Assembly (NCBI RefSeq): GCF_024979255.1
Contig: NZ_JANLCN010000013.1
Location: 1-64,000, forward strand
DNA length: 64,000 nt
Source of the DNA: Herbiconiux moechotypicola
Lineage (GTDB): Bacteria; Actinomycetota; Actinomycetes; Actinomycetales; Microbacteriaceae
Direction: 5' to 3'
In this document: positions 13,294-45,665 of the stretch, one piece after another
Layout: every line of letters begins with the position of its first letter
How positions within the stretch are numbered: the stretch's first letter is position 1
Program-made: the position numbers and the translations under genes
The notes under the pieces: generated by a model
What the model saw: only the letters and a program-made list of their open reading frames with translations
Told to the model about the DNA's origin: nothing
Databases searched by the model: none

Positions 13294-16200
13294 TCAGCAG
13301 CTCGACGCCGACAGGTCGAAGCAGTCCGACACCGCCGTGCTGGATTGCCAGCCCGCCCGTTCATCGGTCACGACGACTCGGTAGACGGAGTCGAGATCGG
13401 CGGAGACCAGCGAGTCGAACACGAACCGATAGCCGTCCTCGCCCACCAGGTCCGTCCAGACCACACCGTCCGGCGACTCCTGCCACTGGTAGGAGATCGT
13501 CCCGTTGTCGAGCGACACCGCCTTGGCCTCGATACCGACCCGCTCTCCCAGAAGCGAGGTGATCGGCGGCAGCGCCGGTGGGGTGCTCGCAGTCGGTGCG
13601 GAGTAGTCGAGTCCCTCGTCCGTCACGAGTGTCGGCTGCTGGTAGATGTTCGCGAGCGGCATGCCCTCGGTCACAGCGCCCACCCCGTCGACGAAGACTC
13701 CGGCCAGGCCGATGGGCCCGGCTTCGGTGAGCCCGTCGCCGTAGATCCTAGTGAGCCGGAACTGCACGTGATCCGTGACCGCGAAGCTCACATAGACCCC
13801 GTCCTCATAGTTGTCGATGAACTTGGCTGCGAGCACCTCGCGGGCGACTGGGTCGATGGCCTCGACCAGTGCCCGAGCTCCCGAGGCCTCCCAATCCAGC
13901 AGATACAGACTCACGGTGCGGCTGGAGTTCCCGAGGTCGAGGTCGACGATCTGGTGGAGTTCGGACGACTGCACCGAGACCGCTCGCTCTGCGGTGTCGT
14001 CAGCGGCCAGGAGCGCCCGGTCGTCTGTCGTCGACTCGGCGAACTCGGTCGATGCCGACCCGACGAAGGTCACGGTCTCACCGAGATCGGAGGCCCCTCC
14101 GTCGATGTAATACCCCTCGTCTCCGTAGTTGCCGACCCAGTCGCCCTGAGTGACCGTATCCGTCCCGAGATACGAGGCGTCACCGCCGGATGCGGCGAGC
14201 GTGTTGGTGCCGGGATCGGTGCCTTTAGGAACGACGGTCAGCAGCTGTCCGGCATCGATCTCGAGAGTCACCCGGTCGTCCACCACCGGCAGCGTTCGCT
14301 TGTTCTGTAGGCCGCTTCCGGTGATGTCGTAGATGTCGACCTCGCTGACGGTCGGCCAGTCCGGCGGCAACAGCCATGCCCTCTCACTTCCATCGTCCGA
14401 GTAGGCCATCACCTCGTGCTCCCGCCAGGAGACAGGCATGAAGACGTCGAAGTGGTTGGCGGTGTTCATGACACCGTCCTCCACGGCGTTGCCGTTGCCC
14501 GTCGAGATCTTGTAGATGCGGTCGCCCTGCGAGATCACGTACTTGTTCTCGATGCGGTCGGTCGCGACGGGGTCGAGTTTCCAGGCGATGGCGGTGGAAC
14601 TGGTCCAGTCATCCACGTTCGCATGGAACATGTAATAGACCTTGTCACCCGCCGAGTTCGTCGCGACCGCAGGCTCACCATTGAGATTCCGCACCGTGTT
14701 CGCCGCACCCGACGTCCCGATCTGATAGCCCAGATACGCGCTGCTCGCCTCCGTCGCACCACCACCCGGAACACCCTCACGCGTGTAGTCACTCACCAAC
14801 CGGGTACTCCCATCCGCCACCAACGCAGCCGGATCGCTGTACCAATCACCCGCAGAACCCTCCGCCGGCAACGACGGAAGCGCCACCACCTCACGAGCAC
14901 CCGTCACCGCATACCCATTCGCCGTGTTGTAGTAATCGTCATACTCACCCGGGTCATAACCCACCGCGAGATAGTTCCCCGTCGCCCGATTCTGCAACCG
15001 GTAATGCCCACTCTCAGCACCATCCACCTGCCGCCAGTGATACCGCTCATCCGACGCATCCGGATACGAACCGAACACCACCTCCCCCGACGAATCCTCC
15101 ATCAAGAACAGATGCTCAGGCGAACCAGGCTGACCCACCAACTCCGGAAACTCCCCCACCCCATACGTCCCAAAAGCCCGCTCGATCGTCACATAGTCCG
15201 GCGGTGGAGCGACGGGGTCGAGTTTCCAGGCGATGGCGGTGGAACTGGTCCAGTCATCCACGTTCGCATGGAACATGTAATAGACCTTGTCACCCGCCGA
15301 GTTCGTCGCGACCGCAGGCTCACCATTGAGATTCCGCACCGTGTTCGCCGCACCCGACGTCCCGATCTGATAGCCCAGATACGCGCTGCTCGCCTCCGTC
15401 GCACCACCACCCGGAACACCCTCACGCGTGTAGTCACTCACCAACCGGGTACTCCCATCCGCCACCAACGCAGCCGGATCGCTGTACCAATCACCCGCAG
15501 AACCCTCCGCCGGCAACGACGGAAGCGCCACCACCTCACGAGCACCCGTCACCGCATACCCATTCGCCGTGTTGTAGTAATCGTCATACTCACCCGGGTC
15601 ATAACCCACCGCGAGATAGTTCCCCGTCGCCCGATTCTGCAACCGGTAATGCCCACTCTCAGCACCATCCACCTGCCGCCAGTGATACCGCTCATCCGAC
15701 GCATCCGGATACGAACCGAACACCACCTCCCCCGACGAATCCTCCATCAAGAACAGATGCTCAGGCGAACCAGGCTGACCCACCAACTCCGGAAACTCCC
15801 CCACCCCATACGTCCCAAAAGCCCGCTCGATCGTCACATAGTTGGAGTCGTCGTCATCGGGCACATAGCTTCCGACGTCCTCAGCCGATCCGCTGTAGAA
15901 CATGCTCTTCACCCCGTCGGAGAACGTGGCGTACTGCGCATCACCGTTGTAGGCCTCGCGGAGCTTGGAGTTGAGGAAGAGATAGGGCACGGTCGTGCGA
16001 GCGACCTCTTGCCCGGCCAGCAGGGGGTCGTCGTGATAGGCCGATTGCTCCAGCTGCACGCTCGCCCCGAAGATGCGCATCGCGTTATTGGCGTTCGCCG
16101 TCATCTTGCCCGCGGCCATGACATACGACGGCACCTTCATCGGGCTGTCGTAGACACCCTTGAATGGGCCACTGCCCTCGCCTTGCGCCCACGTCAACCC

Positions 16201-17061
16201 GTGGGACATGTACCCGTAGAACGCGTCGAACCCGTACTCCGCGACCACATCGACGTGGTAGCGCTGCTTGATGTACGAGACGACCTCCTGGTAGGCCTCG
16301 ATCTGCTCGTCCAGGGTGACGCCGTCGAAGTCGCTCGCACTGATGGCACCGTTCGCGTCGGTGTAGAGGATGCCCGTCTCCTGGATCACCGGCAGCTGGT
16401 CGAAGAGATAGTCGACCTGCTTGCGGATGCCCTGCTCGTCCTCCCACGCCGCCTGAAGGTTGACCCGGTACGACTGGCCGAGCGGGGCGGGTGCCAGCCA
16501 GCCCGGGATGAAGTCACCCTCCGAGTCGCGACTGAGCAGCCCGTTCTCGGAGTAGTAGTCCCACACCGGGCTGCTCTCGTAGGCATCGACGAGGTTCACG
16601 TGCACGGTGGAGCTGGTGTTGAACGCCTTCGACTGTTCCATCAGGTACTGCAGTGCCGTGGGTCCGTCCCACTCGGGATGAGCGGTGCTGGTGAGCTCGG
16701 AATTGATCGGGCCCCACTGAGGGAACTGGTGATCGTGTCCGCCTTCTTGGAACCCGACCAGGATGGCGATCTTCGGCACCCCACGGGTGTAGTTGTCGAT
16801 CTCCTCCATGTAGTCGAGAACCTCTTCGACGGTGCGCTGGTAGGTGCCGTACTCCCCCGGATCGAGGGTGATCTTGTAGACGAGCTTGCCCGAGAGATCG
16901 ACCGCGTGGGGAAGCAGGGGTGAGACCTTGCCGATCTCCTCCGTGGTTCTCGGGGTGCTCGGGCTGCTCGCGGGCGCGCTCGGCGCGAACCCCACGAGCG
17001 GGATCGACACCAGCAGCGCCGTCAGCGCCACCAGTGCTGCTTTCAACCGTTTTGTGAACAC
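13294..17061 (-). CDS. Secreted GH101-like glycoside hydrolase with duplicated internal module
   Basis: A 1255-residue exported protein. A signal peptide (1-~32) is followed by a catalytic-type domain to ~400 resembling GH101 endo-alpha-N-acetylgalactosaminidases: VGFQEGGHDHQFPQW (~102-116), ILYTD with Asp235 as candidate nucleophile and VVAEYGF with Glu275 as candidate acid/base. Residues ~407-618 and ~622-833 are two identical copies of a ~211-residue ligand-binding-like module. A beta-sandwich part resumes at ~835 (DRIYKIS, WLLPPDW) and an Ig-like domain (ISYQWQESPDG) ends the protein. The duplicated module uses G/T-ending codons unlike its C-ending flanks. It lies downstream of the ABC transporter genes, so it probably releases their sugar. 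Family call is by motif only. Confidence 0.72.
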   Translation of the reverse strand: MFTKRLKAALVALTALLVSIPLVGFAPSAPASSPSTPRTTEEIGKVSPLLPHAVDLSGKLVYKITLDPGEYGTYQRTVEEVLDYMEEIDNYTRGVPKIAILVGFQEGGHDHQFPQWGPINSELTSTAHPEWDGPTALQYLMEQSKAFNTSSTVHVNLVDAYESSPVWDYYSENGLLSRDSEGDFIPGWLAPAPLGQSYRVNLQAAWEDEQGIRKQVDYLFDQLPVIQETGILYTDANGAISASDFDGVTLDEQIEAYQEVVSYIKQRYHVDVVAEYGFDAFYGYMSHGLTWAQGEGSGPFKGVYDSPMKVPSYVMAAGKMTANANNAMRIFGASVQLEQSAYHDDPLLAGQEVARTTVPYLFLNSKLREAYNGDAQYATFSDGVKSMFYSGSAEDVGSYVPDDDDSNYVTIERAFGTYGVGEFPELVGQPGSPEHLFLMEDSSGEVVFGSYPDASDERYHWRQVDGAESGHYRLQNRATGNYLAVGYDPGEYDDYYNTANGYAVTGAREVVALPSLPAEGSAGDWYSDPAALVADGSTRLVSDYTREGVPGGGATEASSAYLGYQIGTSGAANTVRNLNGEPAVATNSAGDKVYYMFHANVDDWTSSTAIAWKLDPVAPPPDYVTIERAFGTYGVGEFPELVGQPGSPEHLFLMEDSSGEVVFGSYPDASDERYHWRQVDGAESGHYRLQNRATGNYLAVGYDPGEYDDYYNTANGYAVTGAREVVALPSLPAEGSAGDWYSDPAALVADGSTRLVSDYTREGVPGGGATEASSAYLGYQIGTSGAANTVRNLNGEPAVATNSAGDKVYYMFHANVDDWTSSTAIAWKLDPVATDRIENKYVISQGDRIYKISTGNGNAVEDGVMNTANHFDVFMPVSWREHEVMAYSDDGSERAWLLPPDWPTVSEVDIYDITGSGLQNKRTLPVVDDRVTLEIDAGQLLTVVPKGTDPGTNTLAASGGDASYLGTDTVTQGDWVGNYGDEGYYIDGGASDLGETVTFVGSASTEFAESTTDDRALLAADDTAERAVSVQSSELHQIVDLDLGNSSRTVSLYLLDWEASGARALVEAIDPVAREVLAAKFIDNYEDGVYVSFAVTDHVQFRLTRIYGDGLTEAGPIGLAGVFVDGVGAVTEGMPLANIYQQPTLVTDEGLDYSAPTASTPPALPPITSLLGERVGIEAKAVSLDNGTISYQWQESPDGVVWTDLVGEDGYRFVFDSLVSADLDSVYRVVVTDERAGWQSSTAVSDCFDLSASSC
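14564..15197 (-). repeat. Tandem repeat copy A inside the GH101-like gene
   Basis: A 634-bp unit that appears identical to copy B; the peptide translations match in two different reading frames. It encodes residues ~622-833 of the hydrolase. Eleven bases (15198-15208, encoding an APPPD-type linker) separate the copies. The period is 645 bp, a multiple of three, so the frame is kept. Confidence 0.95.
15209..15842 (-). repeat. Tandem repeat copy B inside the GH101-like gene
   Basis: The upstream copy in gene order, encoding residues ~407-618 (YVTIERAFGTYG to KLDPVA). Codons through most of the unit end in G or T (TAT, GGG, GAT, TTG), while its last dozen codons and the flanks end mostly in C. 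Perfect identity implies a recent duplication or ongoing gene conversion. Confidence 0.95.
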
Positions 17062-17118
17062 ACCTGTCTCCTCTTCATTGAGTGTGGGAATCGTTCTGAG
17101 TGGACTGTCGGGGTCGGA

Positions 17119-18027
17119 CTACCCTTTGATTGCGCCGGCGAGCGCTCCGGATCCGCCCATGAGACGTTGAACCGCGATGTACAGCACGATCACCGGCAGC
17201 GAGTAGACGAGCGAGAAGGCGGCCAGCGGACCGTAGTCGACCGAACCGTGCTGACCGAAGAAGCTGTAGATCGCGACAGCGGCGGGCTGCTTTGCCGGAT
17301 CCAGGAGCAGCACGAACGGCACGAAGAAGTTCCCCCACGCTCCGATGAAGGTGTAAAGGAAGACGACCGCCAGCCCAGGCTTCATGAGCGGAAGCACGAT
17401 CACGCGCAGAGTCCTGAATGCACTCGCTCCATCGACCCAGGCGGCCTCCTCGAGGCTCACCGGGATGGAGTCCATGAAGTTCTTGGCCATCCAGATCGCG
17501 ATGGGCAACGAGCTCGCCGAGAGGAAGAGGATCGTTCCGATGGTCGAATCCACCAGGTTCAGCGACACGAACAGCGCGTAGACGGGCACCATGATCGCCG
17601 TAATCGGCAGACAGGTTCCGAAGATGACGGTGTAGAGAAATGGTTTGTTGAACCGGGACTGATACCTCGACAACGGGTAGGCCGCGAGCACCCCGACGGC
17701 CAGCGTGAGGATCCCCGTTCCGAACGACAGCAGCGCCGAGTTCCAGAGCGGACGGAACGTCTGATCGACGTTCAGAACGTCGCGGAAGTTGCCGATCGAC
17801 AAGCCCTCGGGCAGGTGCAGAACGAGGGTGGCGGCGGGATCGAACGCCGACAGCACGAGCCAGACCATGGGCAACAGGAACACCGCCGCCACCAGCACGA
17901 GCACCGTGTTGACGATCACCGCATCCACTCGTCGACTGGGTGACGCGACGCGATCCCTGACCTGCGGGGCCGGCGATTCGGGCGGGATCACGCGCTCCAC
18001 TGGCCGGGTTCGTTCTTCGATGACCAT
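17119..18027 (-). CDS. Carbohydrate ABC transporter permease (MalG-like)
   Basis: A 302-residue membrane permease of the carbohydrate uptake transporter-1 family. Six helices with the ABC-permease EAA loop SLEEAAWVDGASAFRTL.VIVLPL at ~200-222, where the cytoplasmic ATPase docks. Forms a heterodimer with the MalF-like subunit whose stop shares one base with this start (TGATG). No ATPase gene is in the cluster, so a shared MsmK/MsiK-type ATPase elsewhere in the genome must energise it, as is usual in actinomycetes. The 57-bp gap to the hydrolase gene contains no clear terminator. Confidence 0.95.
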   Translation of the reverse strand: MVIEERTRPVERVIPPESPAPQVRDRVASPSRRVDAVIVNTVLVLVAAVFLLPMVWLVLSAFDPAATLVLHLPEGLSIGNFRDVLNVDQTFRPLWNSALLSFGTGILTLAVGVLAAYPLSRYQSRFNKPFLYTVIFGTCLPITAIMVPVYALFVSLNLVDSTIGTILFLSASSLPIAIWMAKNFMDSIPVSLEEAAWVDGASAFRTLRVIVLPLMKPGLAVVFLYTFIGAWGNFFVPFVLLLDPAKQPAAVAIYSFFGQHGSVDYGPLAAFSLVYSLPVIVLYIAVQRLMGGSGALAGAIKG

Positions 18028-18953
18028 CAGATGTCCACTTCGGGTTTGAGCAGGCGCACGTAGATGACGGAGAAGACCGCACCGATCGCGAGCAGAACCA
18101 CCGCGACGGTCGTGCCGTATCCCACGCGGGAGAACTTGAACGCCTCCTGGTACGCCAGGAGAGGCAGGGTGGTCGAGTCGAACCCGGGCCCGCCCGCGGT
18201 CATGATGTAGATCAGGGCGAATACCGACATCGTCAGGAGCGTGGTGAGGAGGAGGTTCGCCGCCATCGCGCGGCGGATCATGGGCAGGGTGATGAGACGG
18301 AACATGGCGAACCCGCCGGCACCGTCGATGCTCGCAGACTCCTTGATCTCATCGGGGATCTCGTTGAGGGCCGCCGAGTAGACGAGCATCGAGAAGGTCG
18401 ACCCTCGCCAGATATTCGCCAGGATGACGGCGACCATCGGGTAGGTGTAGAGCCAGTTCGGCCCAGTGATACCGATGCCGGCCAGCAGGGCGTTGAGGGT
18501 GCCCGTGTTGTGGAAGAACGCGTAGGCAGCGAAGGCAGCGACCACCTCGGGGAGAACCCATGCCCCTACGAAGACGAGCCCGACGATCAGCCGCACCGGC
18601 TTCGACGCCCGCCGGAGCAGCAGGGCCGCCCCGAGCCCGAGCCCGTTCTGGCCGACGACGGCGGACGCCACGACGAAGATGAGCGTCAGGACGACCGAGA
18701 GCGGAAAAGTGGGGCTCGTGAAGAGCTGGCGGTAGTTGTCGAGACCCACGAACTGGGGGTTCGCCGCATTCGGGCCGGAGAGAGCCGTGTTGGTGAGCGA
18801 CCCGTACAGCGCCCAGACGATGGGTCCGAGAAGGAACACGAGCATGAGGATGATCGCCGGAGCCAGCGGGATCGCCCGGATGAGGGATCGGACCCGCGTC
18901 CGGGGCTGCCGAACCGCAGCAGCCCCGGACGCGGACGGGAGAGTCGTCGTCAC
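18027..18953 (-). CDS. Carbohydrate ABC transporter permease (MalF-like)
   Basis: A 308-residue permease with six hydrophobic helices; partner of the MalG-like subunit. The N-terminal part has LAPAIILMLVFLLGPIVWALY, a P-loop-less long first loop with FVGLDNYRQLF, and the EAA motif lies at IPDEIKESASIDGAGGFAMFRLITLPM. It overlaps the substrate-binding protein by 4 bp (ATGA) and the next permease by one base, giving a rigid operon order: binding protein, MalF, MalG, hydrolase. Confidence 0.95.
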   Translation of the reverse strand: MTTTLPSASGAAAVRQPRTRVRSLIRAIPLAPAIILMLVFLLGPIVWALYGSLTNTALSGPNAANPQFVGLDNYRQLFTSPTFPLSVVLTLIFVVASAVVGQNGLGLGAALLLRRASKPVRLIVGLVFVGAWVLPEVVAAFAAYAFFHNTGTLNALLAGIGITGPNWLYTYPMVAVILANIWRGSTFSMLVYSAALNEIPDEIKESASIDGAGGFAMFRLITLPMIRRAMAANLLLTTLLTMSVFALIYIMTAGGPGFDSTTLPLLAYQEAFKFSRVGYGTTVAVVLLAIGAVFSVIYVRLLKPEVDI

Positions 18954-20308
18954 CGACCCGACTCCGTGTTGTCCTCTCCGACGATTCCGATCACCGCTTG
19001 GTCGTACGCCTTGGCAGCGTCGGCCGGGCTGGTGCCGTTCACCACGGCTTCCGTCGCGATGGCGATCTGCTGAGAGATCTGCGGGTAGTCGGGGGTCGCC
19101 GGGCGGAAGTGGGTCACATCGACCTGATCGGTGAAGAACGGCACCGTGGGGTTCGCGCCCGTGTAGTCGGGCTCGGCGGCGACATCGTCACGCACCGCGA
19201 TCTGCGTACCCTCGACGGCGAACTTCAGCGCGTTCTGCTCGGAGAGCAGTGTCGTGATGAAGTCGAACGCCTCGTCGGGGTGCTTCGTCTTCGAGCCCAT
19301 GGCCACCGTCCAGCCACCTGACATCGAGGTGGTGCCTGCTCCGCCGCCATCCTGTGTCGGAATCGCCGCCCATCCGATCTTCTCGGTCCACTCCGGGAAC
19401 GGGGTGGCACCCGTGTCGGCCCATCCCGAGGGCAGCCACGATCCGTCGACGACCATGCCGACCTTGCCCTCGGGCAGCCACGTGCCCCAGACGGTCTGGG
19501 TCAGTGCCGGGTCGAGAGCGATCGACGCCTCGGGCGAATAACCCTCCCCGTAGACCGTGCTGATGAGCTCGAGGGTGTCCTCGAACCCTTGCGAGTTGAC
19601 CACCCACTTTCCGGTCTCCTCGTTGAACAGGCTGTCGTCGGTGCCGGAGAGGAAGGTCTGGAAGCCACGCATGGTGCCCGCTTCGGCGAGTTGGATGCCC
19701 GCGTAGATCTCCCAGGGGTAGACGTCCGGAACGTTGGCCTTGATCTTCTCGGCCGCGTCGAGCAGGTCGTCCCAGGACTCGGGTTCGAAGGGGAGCGGGA
19801 TGCCTGCAGCCTCGAAGACGTCCTTGTTGTACCAGAGCCCCTGGGTGTCGGTGCCGAGCGAGACGGCGTAGATGTTGCCGTCGACGCCTTCTCCAGCCGC
19901 CTTGGCAGCGTCGACGAACTGGCCCCAGTCCTCCCAGGCGGCGAGACGATCGTCCAGCGGAGCGAGGTATCCGGCCGCCGCATCGGACTTCACCTGGAAG
20001 CTGTCCTCGTAGATCACATCCGGCGCCGTCGCCTCGGATCGGTTCATGAGGGCGAGCTTGGTGAAGTAGTCGTCTGCGCTCGACTTGAGGGGTTGGAGAT
20101 CGACCGTGACCTCCGGGTTGGCCTCTTCGTACTCGGCCTTGGCCTGCTGCATGACCGCGTCCAGTGGGCTGGCATCTCCCTCGATGAGGTAGACGACCTT
20201 GAGTGTGGTCTGGTCAGACTCCCCGCTCTGGGCGGAGCTGCAGCCGGCGAGAGCCAGCACCGCCACTCCGGCCAGCACGGCGGTCAGCCGCTGTGAATGT
20301 GATCTCAC
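18950..20308 (-). CDS. Extracellular solute-binding lipoprotein of a sugar ABC transporter
   Basis: A 452-residue family-1 solute-binding lipoprotein that captures the oligosaccharide and delivers it to the permeases. Signal peptide with lipobox LALAGCSS, then the family pattern LKVVYLIEGDASPL, ...EYEEANPEVTVDLQ and the later GKVGMVVDGSWLP and PDEAFDFITTL segments. The GTG at 20308 is selected because AAGGAG lies 8-9 bases upstream; the frame is open further upstream but that stretch is promoter DNA. First gene of the transporter operon, repressed from an operator just upstream. Confidence 0.94.
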   Translation of the reverse strand: MRSHSQRLTAVLAGVAVLALAGCSSAQSGESDQTTLKVVYLIEGDASPLDAVMQQAKAEYEEANPEVTVDLQPLKSSADDYFTKLALMNRSEATAPDVIYEDSFQVKSDAAAGYLAPLDDRLAAWEDWGQFVDAAKAAGEGVDGNIYAVSLGTDTQGLWYNKDVFEAAGIPLPFEPESWDDLLDAAEKIKANVPDVYPWEIYAGIQLAEAGTMRGFQTFLSGTDDSLFNEETGKWVVNSQGFEDTLELISTVYGEGYSPEASIALDPALTQTVWGTWLPEGKVGMVVDGSWLPSGWADTGATPFPEWTEKIGWAAIPTQDGGGAGTTSMSGGWTVAMGSKTKHPDEAFDFITTLLSEQNALKFAVEGTQIAVRDDVAAEPDYTGANPTVPFFTDQVDVTHFRPATPDYPQISQQIAIATEAVVNGTSPADAAKAYDQAVIGIVGEDNTESGR

Positions 20309-20375
20309 GGAATACTCCTTTGTTTTCCAGTCGCTCGATAAGCTCGACGTGCCGTGTGGCGACACCTCACCCCGT

Positions 20376-20427
20376 ATGGGATCGATGCCACATTGAGTAC
20401 GATATGGATCGAGCCGACTCTCGTCAA
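20376..20427 (-). promoter_or_regulatory. Promoter and LacI-family operator of the transporter operon
   Basis: On the minus strand, TTGACG (20427-20422), 17 bp, TATCGT (20404-20399), immediately followed by a 21-bp element at 20396-20376 (plus-strand ATGGGATCGATGCCACATTGA is 21 bases; half-sites TGGGAT and CCACA). The same element, differing at two positions, precedes the ROK kinase gene. Its position downstream of the -10 fits repression by the neighbouring LacI-type protein. Confidence 0.75.
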
Positions 20428-20486
20428 GACCTCGAACGCAAATGTAAGGTCGTGAGGAATTCGACCATGGACACGAAGGGAGCAGC

Positions 20487-21518
20487 GTGAACGACCGCAA
20501 CGCCATACCCCGACGCCCCACGATCGACGACGTCGCCAAGCTCGCCGGCGTCTCACGGTCGACGACAGCTCGGGCCCTGAGCGGATCGGGCTACGCAGCT
20601 GCCGACGTACGCGATCGCGTGCTCTCAGCCGCCGAACAGCTCGGCTACGTCGCCGACTCGCTCGCCGGCAGTCTCCGGAGCCGGAAGAGCACGTCGGTGG
20701 GAGTTCTGGTCTCCAACATGCGCGACCCGTTCTACGCGGCGCTCGCCGCAGGAATCGGCCAGCGGGCCCAAGCGGCCGGGTACACGATGATCGTGATCGA
20801 CGACCGCGAGTCGACCGCCGAGGAGATGAAGGCGGCGAGAGTGTTCGTAGGCATGCGCGTGGGCGGCGTGATCGTCACGCCTCTGTCGAAAGACGTCGGC
20901 GAGTACTTCCGCTCCCAGCACATCCCGGTGGTCGAGGTCGACCGGACCTTCGGAGTGGATGCCACGGATGCGGTCTTGATCGACAACGTCGGCGCGTCTC
21001 GCAGGCTCCTCGACCTGCTCATCGGGCTCGGGCATCGACGGATCGCACTCCTCACCGACGAGCTCTACTGGACCACGGGTGCTGGGCGGTTCCGCGGATA
21101 TTCCGACGCCCTCGCGGCGGCGGGGCTCGAGGTGCAGGAGGACCTCGTCGTCTCCGTCGCCCTCGACGTGGAAGCGGCGCGGGCGAGCTCGGTCGAGCTT
21201 CTCACCCAGCCCGATCGACCCACCGCCGTCTTCGCGGCGAACAGCCTGCTCACCGAAGGTCTCTGGCGAGCGACGGCCGACCTGGGACTGAGGGTGCCCG
21301 AAGACCTCAGCATCGTCGCGTTCGACGACGCCCCCTGGATGAGCATGGTCAGCCCTGGCGTCACGGCCGTGTCACAAGACATAGTCGGGCTCGGGGAGGC
21401 CTCGATGACGCGGCTGCTCGCCCGGATGTCCGACCCATCTGGACCGCGCGAGACGATCGTCGTGAACGCGCAGCTGCTCGCCAGAGGGTCGACCGCGCCT
21501 CCGAGAGATCACTCCTAG
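20487..21518 (+). CDS. LacI family transcriptional regulator
   Basis: A 343-residue LacI/GalR repressor. HTH at ~11-35 (PTIDDVAKLAGVSRSTTARAL), hinge helix (SLAGSLRSRKSTSVGVL) and a periplasmic-binding-type effector domain (SNMRDPFYAALAAGIGQRA to FDDAPWMSMVSPGVTAV). The GTG start at 20487 has AAGGGAG upstream. It is divergent from the ABC operon and followed by the ROK-SIS-mannosidase operon; two near-identical operators stand in front of both, so this protein most likely controls the whole locus in response to a released sugar. Confidence 0.93.
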   Translation: MNDRNAIPRRPTIDDVAKLAGVSRSTTARALSGSGYAAADVRDRVLSAAEQLGYVADSLAGSLRSRKSTSVGVLVSNMRDPFYAALAAGIGQRAQAAGYTMIVIDDRESTAEEMKAARVFVGMRVGGVIVTPLSKDVGEYFRSQHIPVVEVDRTFGVDATDAVLIDNVGASRRLLDLLIGLGHRRIALLTDELYWTTGAGRFRGYSDALAAAGLEVQEDLVVSVALDVEAARASSVELLTQPDRPTAVFAANSLLTEGLWRATADLGLRVPEDLSIVAFDDAPWMSMVSPGVTAVSQDIVGLGEASMTRLLARMSDPSGPRETIVVNAQLLARGSTAPPRDHS

Positions 21519-21531
21519 CGCGGAGCCGCGG

Positions 21532-21587
21532 TTGACGCGCGCGTCGATCTGGCTCTAGTGTCTGACATGGGATCGATATCACATTGA
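21532..21587 (+). promoter_or_regulatory. Promoter and LacI-family operator of the ROK operon
   Basis: TTGACG (21532-21537), 18 bp, TAGTGT (21556-21561), then a 21-bp operator at 21567-21587 that matches the one before the ABC operon at 19 of 21 positions (GATCGAT core, TGGGAT left, TCACATTGA right). The operator covers the expected transcription start, a repressing position. Confidence 0.75.
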
Positions 21588-21624
21588 TCCCTGGAAGTAC
21601 ACTGCCCGCGAAGAAGGGACAACG

Positions 21625-22608
21625 ATGTCATCTGAGCCCTGCGCTCTCGCCCTCGATATCGGCGGCACGAAGCTCGCCGTCGGTGTCGTCGATGCCGACG
21701 GCACCGTCAGAAGCATGCTGGTGGAGCCGACTCGGCGGACCGAGGGCCCCGACGTCATCGTGCCTCGGTTGTTCGACATGGGTCGGCGCTCGATCACGGA
21801 GGCGGGACTGACCGTCGACGAGGTGAGCGCCGTCGGAATCGCATGCGGCGGTCCACTCGACTCCGCGGCGGGAGTGCTGCTGTCTCCCCTGCACCTCCCG
21901 GACTGGTCTCAGCTTCCGATCGGCGCGCTCGCAGCGGCGGAGTTCGGCGTTCCCGCCACGCTGGTCAACGACGCCAGTGCCGGGGCTTGGGGCGAGTTCC
22001 GGTTCGGTGCCGGACGCGGAACACGCTCCCTGATCTATCTGACCGTGTCGACGGGGATGGGTGGTGGTGCGGTCTTCAACGGCGAGCTCCACTACGGTGC
22101 GGCCGGCAACGGTGGCGAGTTCGGCCACGTGATGGTCAGACCCGGCGGCAGGCTCTGCACCTGTGGCCGCTTGGGCTGCGTGGAGGCCTACGCTTCAGGA
22201 ACGGCGATCGCCGCGTACGCCTCGGAGCTCGTCGCGACCGGCGCACCCTCGTCGCTGAACGAGCTCGACGCCATCACGGCAGCGGATGTGTCCGCCCGGT
22301 CGACGACCGACCCCGTGGCCGGGCGCGTGTGGGGGGAGGGCATGGCAGCCCTCGGTGTGGCGATCACCGATCTCGTGAATGTGATCGAACCTGACGCGGT
22401 GATCATCGGTGGCGGTCTCACGCGGTCGGGCGCACTGCTGCTTCATCCGGTTCGCGAGGCGGTGCGAACATCTGCCATGCCTCCCGCCGGTGCCGCCGTG
22501 CGAGTGGTGCTGTCAGAGCTCGGTGACGCCGCGTGCCTGGTCGGTGCCGGCACCGTCGCGCTCGACAGGCATCTCGCCGCGTCGAAGGGAGTGACCGTTC
22601 ATGCATGA
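21625..22608 (+). CDS. ROK family sugar kinase
   Basis: A 327-residue ROK kinase that phosphorylates a free hexose or amino sugar. N-terminal ATP motif LALDIGGTKLAVGVVD, substrate loop LVNDASAGAWGEFRFG, ROK signature GEFGHVMVRPGG, zinc motif CTCGRLGCVEAYAS and the IIGGGLTRSG phosphate loop. No N-terminal HTH, so it is a kinase and not a regulator. Preceded by a LacI-type operator; it overlaps the SIS gene by 8 bp. The likely substrate is the mannose or another sugar released by the hydrolases here; the sequence alone does not decide which. Confidence 0.92.
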   Translation: MSSEPCALALDIGGTKLAVGVVDADGTVRSMLVEPTRRTEGPDVIVPRLFDMGRRSITEAGLTVDEVSAVGIACGGPLDSAAGVLLSPLHLPDWSQLPIGALAAAEFGVPATLVNDASAGAWGEFRFGAGRGTRSLIYLTVSTGMGGGAVFNGELHYGAAGNGGEFGHVMVRPGGRLCTCGRLGCVEAYASGTAIAAYASELVATGAPSSLNELDAITAADVSARSTTDPVAGRVWGEGMAALGVAITDLVNVIEPDAVIIGGGLTRSGALLLHPVREAVRTSAMPPAGAAVRVVLSELGDAACLVGAGTVALDRHLAASKGVTVHA

Positions 22609-23182
22609 ATCGACCGAGCATCAGCTGGCCGAGCACGTGTCGGTCGGCGAGAAGGTCATCGAACTCGCATCTGCGGTCGACGGGGTCGCCCGGGTCATGC
22701 GCGACGCCCTTCGTGCCGGAGGCACGGTCTATTCCTTCGGTAATGGCGGGAGCGCATCCGACGCCCAACATTTCACGGGCGAGCTGATCGGCCACTACAA
22801 ACGAGATCGGCGGCCGCTCGCTGCTGTCACGCTGGGATCCGACTCCACGACGATGACGTGCATCGCCAACGACTACGCCTATGCCGACGTGTTCTCGCGT
22901 CAGGTGGCCGCGCTCGCCCATGAGAATGACGTGGTGGCCGCATTCACGACCAGCGGGATGTCACCCAACGTGGTGGCGGCACTCGCCTGCGCCCAAAAGA
23001 ACGGTGCTATCACGGTGCTCTTCGGGGGCGGTGACGGCGGTGACGCACTCACCCACGCCGACTACGCCCTGCTGTCTCCGTCGCAGTCCACACCGCGCAT
23101 TCAGGAGGCCCACACCCTCTTCCTCCACGCCATCAGCGAGTACCTGGATGCATGGGCCGCGGGAGAGGAGTCGCTCGCGTGA
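22601..23182 (+). CDS. SIS-domain sugar-phosphate isomerase (GmhA-like)
   Basis: A 193-residue single SIS domain of the phosphoheptose isomerase (GmhA/DiaA) group. Motifs: YSFGNGGSASDAQHFTGELIG, LGSDSTTMTCIANDY, FTTSGMSPNVVAAL and the C-terminal IQEAHTLFLHAISEYLD helix. In lipopolysaccharide producers GmhA makes heptose-7-phosphate; in a Gram-positive sugar locus beside a ROK kinase, isomerisation of a phosphorylated released sugar is more plausible, but this is inference. It overlaps both neighbours (8 bp and 4 bp), so expression is coupled. Confidence 0.88.
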   Translation: MHESTEHQLAEHVSVGEKVIELASAVDGVARVMRDALRAGGTVYSFGNGGSASDAQHFTGELIGHYKRDRRPLAAVTLGSDSTTMTCIANDYAYADVFSRQVAALAHENDVVAAFTTSGMSPNVVAALACAQKNGAITVLFGGGDGGDALTHADYALLSPSQSTPRIQEAHTLFLHAISEYLDAWAAGEESLA

Positions 23183-25824
23183 ACCGCGGAGACCGTACAG
23201 GTACCAGCGCCGGCGTTGCGCCGATGGCGAATGCTCCCACCGGGTTCAGACCGGATGGGGGGTCAGGCGTCGATCGACCCGTCGCCACCCACCCACGCCA
23301 GATCCATATGATCGGCAACGCCCACATCGACCCGGTGTGGCTGTGGCCCTGGCAGGAGGGGTATCAGGAGGCGCGAGCGACCTTCCAGTCGGCGATCGAT
23401 CGAATGGACGAGTACGACGACTTCATCTTCACCTGCGACCAGATGGTGCTGCTCAGTTGGGTGGAGGAGTCCGACCCGGTGTTGTTCGCGCGCATCCGGC
23501 AGCGTGTAGAGGAGGGACGCTGGGTGAACGTCGGCGGCTGGTGGGTGGAACCGGACTGCAACATGCCCATGGGAGAGTCGTTCGCCCGACAGGGCCTTTA
23601 CGGGCAGCGGTATCTGCAGTCGCGCTTCGGCCGTCCTGCGACCTTCGCGATGAATGTCGACCCGTTCGGTCACAACGCGATGCTGCCCCAGATCCTGCGG
23701 TCGCAGGGGATGACGGGGTATGCGTTTCTTCGACCCGGCCCGCACGAGAAGACCCTCCCCGGGTCGGTCTTCTGGTGGGAGTCGCCCGACGGCAGCCGCG
23801 TTCTCGCGTGCCGCATCCCGTACGAGTACCAGAGCAGCGGCGGCGAGATCGACGAGCAGGCCCAGCGGTCGATCGGGCAGCTGGAGCCCGAGTTGCACGA
23901 CGTCATGGTGTTCTTCGGCGTCGGCAACCACGGCGGAGGGCCGACCAAAGCCAATATCGAATCGATCTATCGTTTCGACCGGATGGGGTCGTTCGGAAGC
24001 ATGAAGATGTCATCACCTCCTCAGTTCTTCGACGAGTTCTCGGCGCGCGCCGGGCGCGAGGGCCTGGACTCGCTGCCCGTCTGGCGCGGCGATCTGCAGC
24101 ACCACGCCCCGGGCTGCTACTCCTCCCACTCCGGGATCAAACTCTGGCAGCGGAAGGCGCAGGCGACCGTGTTGTCGGCCGAACGGTGGGCTGCGGTGGT
24201 GACTATCACCACCGGCGTCGACTACCCGAAGGCTGATCTCGAGAACGCGTGGAAGCAGGTGCTGTTCAACCAGTTCCACGACGTCTTGCCCGGTTCAGCC
24301 CTCGAGACGGCCTATGACGACGCGCGCGACCAGCTCGGCGAAGCGATCTCCATCGCGAAGAGGATCATCACCCGCTCGCAGAACATCATCGCGCGCCAGA
24401 TCGACATCCCGCTGGAGCCCAGCCACCAACCGGTGGTGGTCTTCAACCCTCACCCGTGGCCCACGACCTCCGTGCTGGATCTGCAGTACCAGACCGGTGC
24501 GCGCCCGGACGGTATGCACATGGTGGATGCGGCCGGCAGGCCGGTTCCCTCGCAGAACGTCCGTGCGCTCTCCGTCGGCGACGAGGGCCGCGGAGCAATC
24601 GCCTTCCAGTCGGATCTGCCGGCTTTCGGATACCGGCTCTACTACCTGCGCGGAGGGGCGGCCCCGGCGGGTGCCGCCTGGGGTGATGCTTCGCCGCAGC
24701 CGCTTCACTCATCCGAGCACACACTGGAGAATCGCCATCTCCGGCTCACATTGGATCCCGACACCGGGTGGCTCAGCTCCCTCGTCGACAAGCGCAGTGG
24801 AGCGGATCTCGCGGCGAACGCCCTGGGCGACCACCACACCCAGATCTGCCAAGACCCGACGGACACGTGGGGTCACAGAGTGGTCAGCTACAACTGGCCC
24901 GGCGTGCCCTTGCGCACGGATCGCATCTCGCTGCGCGAGTCCGGCCCACTTCGCTCTCGCATCCGCGTGGAGCGCAGCTGGGGGAGGTCCACGATGATCG
25001 AGGACTTCATCCTCGGCCACGACAGCGACCAGGTCGAGGTGCGGGTGACGATCGACTGGCGCGAGCGGGCACACATGCTCAAGCTCCGATTCCCTGTCGC
25101 CGTCTCTGACCCGACGGCCACGTTCGAGATCCCGTTCGGCACGCTCGAGCGCCCGGTGAACGGGTCGGAGGAGCCAGGACAGTCGTGGGTCGATCTGACG
25201 GGTGACACCGAAGCGCACGGACGCGTCGGACTCGCGGTGGTCAACAACGCCAAGCACGGCTACGACGCATCCCCGGCGCGTGTTCTCGACGACGGGCGGG
25301 TGGAGTCGGCGAGCATCGGCATCACCGCCGTGCGCAGCCCTGTCTACTCGTGGCACGACCCCCGACTCCTCGATCCCGAGGAGTCGTACTCCTACCAGGA
25401 CCAAGGGGTGCAGACCTTCACCTACCTCCTCGTCCCGCACGGCGCCGACTGGCGTGAGGCCGATCTGACCCGTCGTGCTGCGCTCCTCGGCTCGGCGCCG
25501 AGAGCGATGATGGAGTCGTTCCACGAGGGACCGCTCAGGCCATCAGCCTCCTTCGCTTCAGACCGCGGAGGCTCCGTCATGATCACGGCGATCAAGGGGA
25601 GCGAGGACGACGGAGTGGACGGAACGGACTTGATCGTGCGAGCGGTCGAGACCTCGGGCTCGGCGACGACGGTCGAGCTCGACCTTCCGCTCGTGGGCCG
25701 CACCCTCACGGCGGAGTTCGCCGCCCACCAGATCCGCACCTGGAGGATTCCGCGCGACCCGGAGTCGCCTGCCGTCGAAGTGGACCTCGTGGAATGGCCG
25801 GTGCCCACGACGATCGTGCCATGA
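23179..25824 (+). CDS. GH38 alpha-mannosidase
   Basis: An 881-residue cytoplasmic-type alpha-mannosidase (no signal peptide). Zinc site HID at ~49-51 in GNAHIDPVWLW, EPDCNMP (~125-130), nucleophile Asp161 in NVDPFGHN, and VGNHGGGPT carrying a further zinc histidine. A three-helix bundle and a large C-terminal beta domain follow. The GTG at 23179 is chosen because GGAGAGGAG sits just upstream and it overlaps the isomerase stop; ATG at 23152 or 23224 are alternatives. It would trim alpha-mannosides after import by the divergent ABC system, feeding the ROK kinase and SIS isomerase. Confidence 0.94.
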   Translation: MNRGDRTGTSAGVAPMANAPTGFRPDGGSGVDRPVATHPRQIHMIGNAHIDPVWLWPWQEGYQEARATFQSAIDRMDEYDDFIFTCDQMVLLSWVEESDPVLFARIRQRVEEGRWVNVGGWWVEPDCNMPMGESFARQGLYGQRYLQSRFGRPATFAMNVDPFGHNAMLPQILRSQGMTGYAFLRPGPHEKTLPGSVFWWESPDGSRVLACRIPYEYQSSGGEIDEQAQRSIGQLEPELHDVMVFFGVGNHGGGPTKANIESIYRFDRMGSFGSMKMSSPPQFFDEFSARAGREGLDSLPVWRGDLQHHAPGCYSSHSGIKLWQRKAQATVLSAERWAAVVTITTGVDYPKADLENAWKQVLFNQFHDVLPGSALETAYDDARDQLGEAISIAKRIITRSQNIIARQIDIPLEPSHQPVVVFNPHPWPTTSVLDLQYQTGARPDGMHMVDAAGRPVPSQNVRALSVGDEGRGAIAFQSDLPAFGYRLYYLRGGAAPAGAAWGDASPQPLHSSEHTLENRHLRLTLDPDTGWLSSLVDKRSGADLAANALGDHHTQICQDPTDTWGHRVVSYNWPGVPLRTDRISLRESGPLRSRIRVERSWGRSTMIEDFILGHDSDQVEVRVTIDWRERAHMLKLRFPVAVSDPTATFEIPFGTLERPVNGSEEPGQSWVDLTGDTEAHGRVGLAVVNNAKHGYDASPARVLDDGRVESASIGITAVRSPVYSWHDPRLLDPEESYSYQDQGVQTFTYLLVPHGADWREADLTRRAALLGSAPRAMMESFHEGPLRPSASFASDRGGSVMITAIKGSEDDGVDGTDLIVRAVETSGSATTVELDLPLVGRTLTAEFAAHQIRTWRIPRDPESPAVEVDLVEWPVPTTIVP

Positions 25825-40531: not shown

Positions 40532-41125
40532 TCAGCCGTAGGCGACGGAGTCCTGGGCGAAGTTGCCGACACCGCTGGCCGGATCTCCCGCGATGACCGT
40601 GATGGTGGCCTCGCGCACGGTGCTGTAGGGCAGGCTCGCCGAGCTCGAGGGCCAGCGGTCGAACAGGATGCCGTCGACCGCGAGCACCGCCGAGTCGCCC
40701 TGCAGGATCGTGCCCGTGAACGTCCAGGTGCCCACGAGGTCGGTGCCGAGCGTTCCGGGCGTCGACCAGCCGTCGAAGGTCCAGGTCGAGCTGCTCGGGC
40801 TGATGGGCGTGGTGTCGCTGCCCGAGGGGATGATGAACAAGTCGGCGTCGTCGAGGAGGAACTGGAGGGCGACCGTGATCGTGCCCGTCCAGTCTCCCGG
40901 GAACCCCGCCGAGTCGTAGGCGACGAGGCCGAAGGGGATCTCGCCCTTGAGGCTGTACTGGTCGAGCGGGGCGAGGAAGAGCTCGAACTCCGGTTCGGTG
41001 GCGGTGGTCGAGGCGGCAGCCAGCGGTGTCGCCACGGCGAGCGCCACGACGGGAACGCTCCAGGCGCCGGCGGCGATGACGGAGCGGCGGGAGACGTGAG
41101 CGTCGGTGCGAAGGTCAGGGGTCAT
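40532..41125 (-). CDS. Tat-exported small protein, paralog 1
   Basis: A 197-residue secreted protein of unknown function. The signal peptide has a twin-arginine start and the shared block SRRSVIAAGAWSVPVVALAV, then a TPLAAAS cleavage region. The mature part (~165 residues) is predicted all-beta with FPGDWTGTITVALQ and LVGTWTFTGTILQGD, matching segments in paralogs 2 and 3. No cysteines, so no lipidation. ATG 41125 is chosen because GAGGAG lies 9 bases upstream; ATG 41134 overlaps that ribosome site. One of five relatives within 5 kb. Confidence 0.8.
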   Translation of the reverse strand: MTPDLRTDAHVSRRSVIAAGAWSVPVVALAVATPLAAASTTATEPEFELFLAPLDQYSLKGEIPFGLVAYDSAGFPGDWTGTITVALQFLLDDADLFIIPSGSDTTPISPSSSTWTFDGWSTPGTLGTDLVGTWTFTGTILQGDSAVLAVDGILFDRWPSSSASLPYSTVREATITVIAGDPASGVGNFAQDSVAYG

Positions 41126-41144
41126 GTCTGTCATCTCCTCGGGT

Positions 41145-42866: not shown

Positions 42867-43361
42867 ATGCGATCACCGGTTGACAACGACACGCTCGGCC
42901 GCCGGAGCGTTCTCGCGGCGGGCGTCTGGTCGGTGCCCGTCGTGGTCGCCGCCGTGGCGGCTCCGGCGGCCGCCGCCTCCGATTCGCCGGGGCTGGTCGA
43001 CCTCCTCACGCTCACGGTCGGGGTGATCACGGAGAGCGCCGACACCGGGCTCGACTGGAGCGGCGCGACACTCACCTACCTGTGGAGCGCGGACGGACCC
43101 GAGACGATCGGCTACACCTGGACCGCCACACTGCTCTACGACGACGGCAACGGCGTTCCGGTGGAGACCGCCATCGGCACCGGCTCCGACACGGTGGCGA
43201 AGACGGGCTCGGTGGATTTCGGCGCGACCGCCGACGGGGACGACATCGTCGACCCACCGGTGCCTCCGGGCACCTACACCGTGGAGGTCGTGATCGTCGC
43301 CTCCGACGGATCGACCCGCACCTGGTACGGCAACCCCTACATCGTCGCCGAGCCGACGTGA
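42867..43361 (+). CDS. Tat-exported small protein, paralog 4
   Basis: A 164-residue secreted protein. LGRRSVLAAGVWSVPVVVAAV and APAAAAS form the signal, the same plan with a few substitutions. The mature part differs more: LTYLWSADGPETIGYTWTATLLYDD and PPVPPGTYTVEVVIVASDGSTR look like a single fibronectin/Ig-like beta sandwich. The ATG at 42867 has GGGGCGGAG upstream. Followed 100 bp later by the acyltransferase gene. Confidence 0.78.
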   Translation: MRSPVDNDTLGRRSVLAAGVWSVPVVVAAVAAPAAAASDSPGLVDLLTLTVGVITESADTGLDWSGATLTYLWSADGPETIGYTWTATLLYDDGNGVPVETAIGTGSDTVAKTGSVDFGATADGDDIVDPPVPPGTYTVEVVIVASDGSTRTWYGNPYIVAEPT

Positions 43362-45154: not shown

Positions 45155-45272
45155 GAGAACTCAGGGTAGTGGCGAATGCGTGAGCATGGCCAGACGGGGG
45201 AGCCTGGTCGGACCTCGGAGGCGGTCACGGTAGCCTGGGGCTGCGAAGCACGCGTACGGCTTGGGGGAGCAG

Positions 45273-45665
45273 ATGAAAGACGTATCTCGACGCACCGTCC
45301 TCACCGGAGCTGCATGGTCGGTTCCGGTGATCGCCCTGGGGGTCACTGCCCCCGCGGCCGCGGCAAGCGGTGCAGCACCTTCTGTCACCATCACCGGAAT
45401 CGCCTACACCGGATCGTTCGACTGGTACCGCCTGTTCATCACGGTCGACAACATCCCGAGTGGAGCCCAGAACCTCACCGGCGGGGTCACCTGGACGCCC
45501 ACCGGAGGAGCCACCATCGGTTCGTCGAACTTCGTGGTCGACGAGTCAGGGAATGCGTCGATCACCTTGGCCGACTTCCCGACCGGCGTCCCTTACATCT
45601 TCACGGCAACCGTCAGGATCCAGGGTGCAGCGGTTCAAGGCTCGTTCACGTACACGTTCAGTTGA
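45273..45665 (+). CDS. Tat-exported small protein, paralog 5
   Basis: A 130-residue secreted protein, the shortest of the five. VSRRTVLTGAAWSVPVIALGV and TAPAAAAS form the signal. The mature ~100 residues are one predicted beta-sandwich (LFITVDNIPSGAQNLTGGVTWTP, FTATVRIQGAAVQGSFTYTF). ATG 45273 follows GGGGGAG at good spacing; the TTG at 45261 lies within that ribosome site. Overlaps the next, convergent gene by 8 bp. Confidence 0.78.
   Translation: MKDVSRRTVLTGAAWSVPVIALGVTAPAAAASGAAPSVTITGIAYTGSFDWYRLFITVDNIPSGAQNLTGGVTWTPTGGATIGSSNFVVDESGNASITLADFPTGVPYIFTATVRIQGAAVQGSFTYTFS

Follow-up and report, generated by a model that had tools for sequence, protein, structure and literature searches.

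The gene at positions 13,294 to 17,061 of the window (the whole stretch of DNA analysed, 64,000 nucleotides from Herbiconiux moechotypicola) raises the question of how a glycosidase came to carry two identical, neighbouring copies of a module in a codon style that the rest of the gene does not share: was the module imported from another species, or was it recoded in place before it was duplicated? The features concerned are as follows.

13294..17061, minus strand: host gene, encoding a 1255-aa GH101-related glycosidase with a signal-like N-terminus (ORF list and Glyco_hydro_101 profile)
16297..16881, minus strand: stretch matching the GH101 catalytic family, residues 61–255 (profile match)
15209..15842, minus strand: repeat copy 1, the one nearer the N-terminus
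15292..15840, minus strand: skewed core of copy 1, codons 408–590; GC skew 0.365 and TA skew 0.206 on the coding strand
15209..15291, minus strand: tail of copy 1, native in style as judged from third positions and skews
15198..15208, minus strand: 11-bp filler between the copies, which with flanking bases encodes a PPPD linker
14564..15197, minus strand: copy 2 of the repeat, identical to copy 1
14647..15195, minus strand: skewed core of copy 2, codons 623–805, delimited by two-style edges
14564..14646, minus strand: native-style tail of copy 2, identical to that of copy 1
14311..14418, minus strand: residues 882–917, matching the GH101 beta-sandwich family weakly; 13.9 bits, below the cut-off of 25
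17119..25824, mixed strands: neighbouring glycan-use genes; two ABC permeases and a solute-binding protein (minus), LacI, ROK, SIS and GH38 (plus)

The host enzyme, its locus and the repeated module

The Glyco_hydro_101 barrel profile matched residues 61–255 of the host protein at 34.4 bits (cut-off 25); this catalytic match lies above the curated cut-off, yet covers 167 of the 272 profile positions, and the sandwich match, unlike that of the barrel, falls under its cut-off. Compared with nine canonical GH101 endo-alpha-N-acetylgalactosaminidases from the class sample, which scored 373–424 bits, the host protein scored 37.6. Alignment with these nine demonstrated agreement at the GHD and VHVN motifs and placed D235 of the host opposite the Asp of their YID/YWD motif, at the position of the GH101 nucleophile. 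The same alignment put no glutamate at the acid/base position, for which E275 (in AEYG) is a candidate by eye. None of the nine has a comparable insert where the host carries its modules, near the start of the sandwich.

Searches with the catalytic part retrieved relatives in none of the 397 other genomes of the family sample, no match in genome contigs or viral contigs, and a match in one of 217 other genomes of the order sample, which resembles canonical GH101. The full protein matched nine places in 7 of the 393 other genomes of the class sample: seven in its C-terminal Ig-like part, one in the sandwich (L012) and one over the module stretch (L014), the last judged to be in a wrong frame. 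Two plasmid records gave partial matches outside the module, and PHROGs gave three weak matches (best E 0.012); there was no significant match among solved structures and none in NCBIfam.

The neighbouring ABC importer, LacI, ROK, SIS and GH38 genes indicate that the host gene likely has a role in the breakdown and uptake of glycans. Among 15 other genomes of the genus, 14 hold only distant matches (about 25–37% identity) to the solute-binding protein, and one holds none. Because of these distant matches, and because the samples searched yielded nothing closely related to the catalytic part or to the module, the whole locus may be an accessory island, perhaps acquired, a question separate from the style of the module. 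The G+C of the glycan-use locus (13294–25824) is about 0.61–0.69, and that of much of the window is about 0.70 or above. Elsewhere in the window, three small ORFs (40532–41134, minus; 42867–43361, plus; 45261–45665, plus) have in common a Tat-like N-terminus with an RR motif, of the type RRSVLAAGAWSVPVVALA, and are possibly paralogous secreted proteins.

The earlier note had described an in-frame tandem duplication, two identical copies 645 bp apart, inside a GH101-related enzyme with a secretion-signal-like start, and this description was borne out: the copies match at 634/634 bases, without silent differences. The match stops at 634 bases on either side, and together with the filler gives a period of 645 bp, or 215 codons, so that the frame is kept; each copy encodes about 212 residues. 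When the unit was searched against its own genome (4,277,819 bases in 51 contigs), only these two places were found. Nine of the 11 filler bases recur within the tail of copy 1, at a distance of 35 bases upstream; this is weak evidence, because a 9-mer of this kind was present in 75 of 5403 sampled 100-base stretches. By eye, no homology was seen in the flanks of the outer repeat ends.

The module gave a weak match to RicinB_lectin_2, a family of ricin-type beta-trefoil-like modules, which softens the earlier statement that no family could be named for it. The protein with both copies scored 27.0 bits against this profile (cut-off 25.6), and a single module 16.9 bits (E 0.011) over about 39 residues. 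Judged from this likeness in sequence, the repeat module is perhaps lectin-like and possibly sugar-binding. Its relatives were sought in genome samples and by pattern scans. They were absent from all 298 other genomes of the family sample, from a pattern scan of genome contigs, from phages and plasmids at E 0.1 and from PHROGs, and the samples searched held no native-style relative either. Matches in 3 of 295 other genomes of the phylum sample (E 0.001–0.007) were judged to be chance after the loci had been read: L097 and L098 overlap aminotransferase-like and aconitase-like genes, and L099 has a 65-aa open frame. A single viral-contig locus, 29% identical over about 54 residues, was likewise judged to be chance.

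Codon style of the core and of PKS repeats

Third positions in the skewed core are A 0.00, C 0.14, G 0.55 and T 0.31, compared with A 0.06, C 0.49, G 0.37 and T 0.08 in the rest of the host gene. The style thus consists of almost no A, little C and much G and T at silent sites, with TTG for leucine, and it is confined to part of the gene, as had been claimed. Fitted with a two-style likelihood, it begins at codon 408, where the repeat itself starts, and ends at codon 590, so that the last 29 codons of the repeat lie outside it. The end of each copy had been described as native in style and duplicated along with the rest; both points stood, the tail fitting native usage in a synonymous-draw test, but its length is about 29 codons rather than a dozen. 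An 835-aa antisense ORF (14416–16923, plus strand) spans both copies; it stays open because the core is almost without A at third positions, and it is taken as a by-product of the codon style.

Amino-acid content is not the cause of the skew, since the GC skew, TA skew or T3–C3 of the core was reached in 0 of 1500 synonymous draws with the same residues, whether the reference was the own genome or the own gene. Leucine is telling, because there the change lies at the first base: the TTG share of TTG+CTG is 0.75 in the core (n = 8), 0.69 in PKS repeats (n = 515) and 0.06 in the organism's own genes (n = 12751).

A style filter passed 37 of 29,099 windows of 60 codons in the own genome (1,220,889 bases), 27 of them within the host gene; the other ten, in three other ORFs, were judged to be wrong frames or over-long starts, the ORFs for the style and skew scans having been picked by a simple GC rule that includes wrong frames. 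No such window occurred among 8573 from 20 other genomes (20 kb each), nor among 1864 from Ig-like repeat surface proteins of related genomes (29 of 30 loci, L132 being left out at a contig edge). Three other short in-gene repeats of the own genome are native in style in their likely frames (a fourth place, C5:109112, lies in no single ORF and was left out of this check), so repetition alone does not bring the style. On the evidence of the surface proteins and these three repeats, we rejected the view that it comes with every repeat inside a gene or with every giant surface protein.

The style was found again at ketosynthase loci. Among 30 such loci in 12 large genomes of one genus, apparently Streptomyces, four held style windows (41/120, 40/120 and 22/120 windows, and a single window at the fourth), and these windows fall in the apparent acyltransferase (AT) part; for one locus (L161) the strand was guessed. 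Codon usage of the core correlated at 0.887 with that of PKS repeats and at 0.446 with that of own genes, and PKS repeats correlated with own genes at 0.565. The figure of 0.887 is the independent one, its PKS set having been chosen by skew and identity (both mean skews >0.25) without a codon filter; another value, 0.90, is circular, as its set was picked by the same codon filter. Sixteen of the 19 chosen regions were usable, three being without one covering ORF, and three regions with a mean skew of 0.25 after rounding were left out. Core, PKS repeats and own genes were poorly separated by the G:T ratio in fourfold boxes, and third-position C (0.14) and the NNY/4-fold values of the core are milder than in the strongest PKS repeats.

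An AT query from one PKS cluster found 20 places there, itself included. The query and two ATs at 98–99% identity are fully skewed and one at 83% is nearly so; five ATs at 33–39% are intermediate in style, and 11 at 34–55% are ordinary. In a second genome, a skewed AT pair only about 42% identical to the query has the same style. The style thus follows near-identical repeats and not donor lineage. The earlier reading of the style as a sign of foreign origin is not supported by this evidence: the style is no donor fingerprint, because it is carried by near-identical PKS ATs of two clusters, beside ATs in the ordinary C-ending style.

Comparison with GRINS

GRINS, according to the abstract of a 2021 PNAS paper, reportedly occur in several phyla and gene families, with the mechanism said to be unknown. 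In PMC9899208, the recipe for a GRINS is at least 500 bp at >80% identity in the same gene or cluster, with a skew limit of 0.15. By this recipe both copies were called, at 660 and 630 bp with mean identities of 0.99 and 1.00, these identities coming from blastn and not from the pairwise aligner of that paper. Their mean |GC skew| of 0.32–0.34 and mean |TA skew| of 0.18–0.19 pass the limit. The limit is lenient: 38 of 2069 single-copy segments of the own genome reach 0.15 in both absolute skews, nine with the same signs. The observed values are reached in absolute size by 2 of the 2069, and by none with the same sign. In 1,700,661 own bases (of 4.28 Mb), nothing but the two copies reached 500 bp at >80% identity to a partner within 10 kb. 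When the recipe of PMC9899208 was applied to three PKS stretches, the skew limit was exceeded by 34 of their 48 repeat regions. By stretch, the counts are 19/27 in L203–L208 (G415), 2/2 in L200–L202 (G564) and 13/19 in L209–L212 (G507).

PMC10394414 gives a stricter description: about 1 kb, often >90% identical to another region of the same PKS, with GC and TA skews >25%. The GC skew here exceeds that value (0.299 for the unit, 0.365 for the core), whereas the TA skew (0.163 and 0.206) stays below it, and the repeat is 634 bp in a glycosidase gene instead of about 1 kb in an assembly-line PKS. No modular PKS gene was found in the own genome, where the only two ketosynthase matches lie in frames of 419 and 466 aa. 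PMC11907408 considers GRINS likely to be involved in AT diversification, and our literature search on GRINS and duplicated glycosidase modules returned no report of GRINS in a glycosidase.

The element therefore shares with GRINS a high-identity repeat within one gene, strong same-sign GC and TA skew on the coding strand, and silent-site recoding in the codon style of PKS repeats. It differs in its glycosidase setting, its strictly tandem arrangement of two 634-bp copies, its weaker TA skew, and a skew that ends 29 codons before the repeat does. Because it passes the recipe, with its lenient skew limit, and falls short of the stricter TA skew and length, it is called GRINS-like, a variant rather than a plain member.

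Origin of the repeat and its meaning

We consider it likely that the repeat is a two-copy GRINS-like element formed by recoding in place and then by tandem duplication in an end-joining-like event. Over about 550 bp of one module, the process that acts in PKS genes would have moved silent sites of the coding strand towards G and T. The 645-bp unit of skewed core, unskewed 3′ end and linker would then have been duplicated in tandem, with the 11-bp filler at the junction and the non-homologous outer ends pointing to end joining or template switching. Since both copies share the skewed core and the unskewed tail, recoding would be earlier than the last duplication or homogenisation. The event may be recent, or gene conversion may maintain the identity of the copies; perfect identity fits both equally. 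The enzyme would thereby have two modules beside its catalytic part, perhaps sugar-binding if the weak family match is a guide, and the second may add avidity.

It is unlikely that the enzyme received a foreign binding module, written in the G/T-ending codons of its donor, and that this insert was afterwards doubled along with a small piece of host DNA. Such an import would account for the sharp 5′ style edge at the repeat start and for the missing insert in the nine canonical GH101s, and it would suit a locus that looks accessory, with a binding protein only distantly matched in the genus. However, the style did not appear as a genome-wide donor style in the 20 genomes scanned, and core and native-style tail may be parts of one domain. 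PKS domains, moreover, are known to acquire the style within native genes (PMC10394414). The failure to find any module relative in the samples searched counts against a donor, and is also the reason why import keeps a small share of probability.

An assembly artefact, in which the tandem copy is unreal or the true copy number exceeds two, is very improbable. In its favour are the draft state of the genome (51 contigs) and the perfect identity of the copies, but a unique 11-bp filler separates them, the frame is kept, and the skew would persist even with one copy; short-read assemblers, besides, tend to collapse such repeats rather than invent them. Hardly credible is selection of the style on the module for translation or mRNA reasons, without a tie to duplication or GRINS: the skew is indeed confined to one protein module and avoids A and C at silent sites, but the strongest style island coincides with the only long nearby repeat found in 1.70 Mb, and neither the Ig-like surface proteins of related genomes nor the three short in-gene repeats carry the style.

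A broader reading can be offered, tentatively and with some doubt. The GRINS process may not be restricted to assembly-line genes; it may work in a genome that lacks modular PKS, and may have been caught here in minimal form: a skewed core, an unskewed tail and one duplication with a readable junction. Recoding would then have preceded the latest duplication or homogenisation, and the 3′ edge of the duplication would have been set independently of that of the recoding. The origin of GRINS is said to be unknown in the 2021 abstract. Set beside a 100-kb PKS cluster, two copies in a small and probably accessory enzyme gene form a far simpler case, and this simplicity makes the order of recoding and duplication testable. 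Were the broader reading true, the skew would not be a side effect of a high number of repeats, and the same route could multiply modules of secreted enzymes. GRINS are known mainly from antibiotic-making genes; an intragenic island of codon style does not prove horizontal transfer, and an odd style need not signal the DNA of another species.
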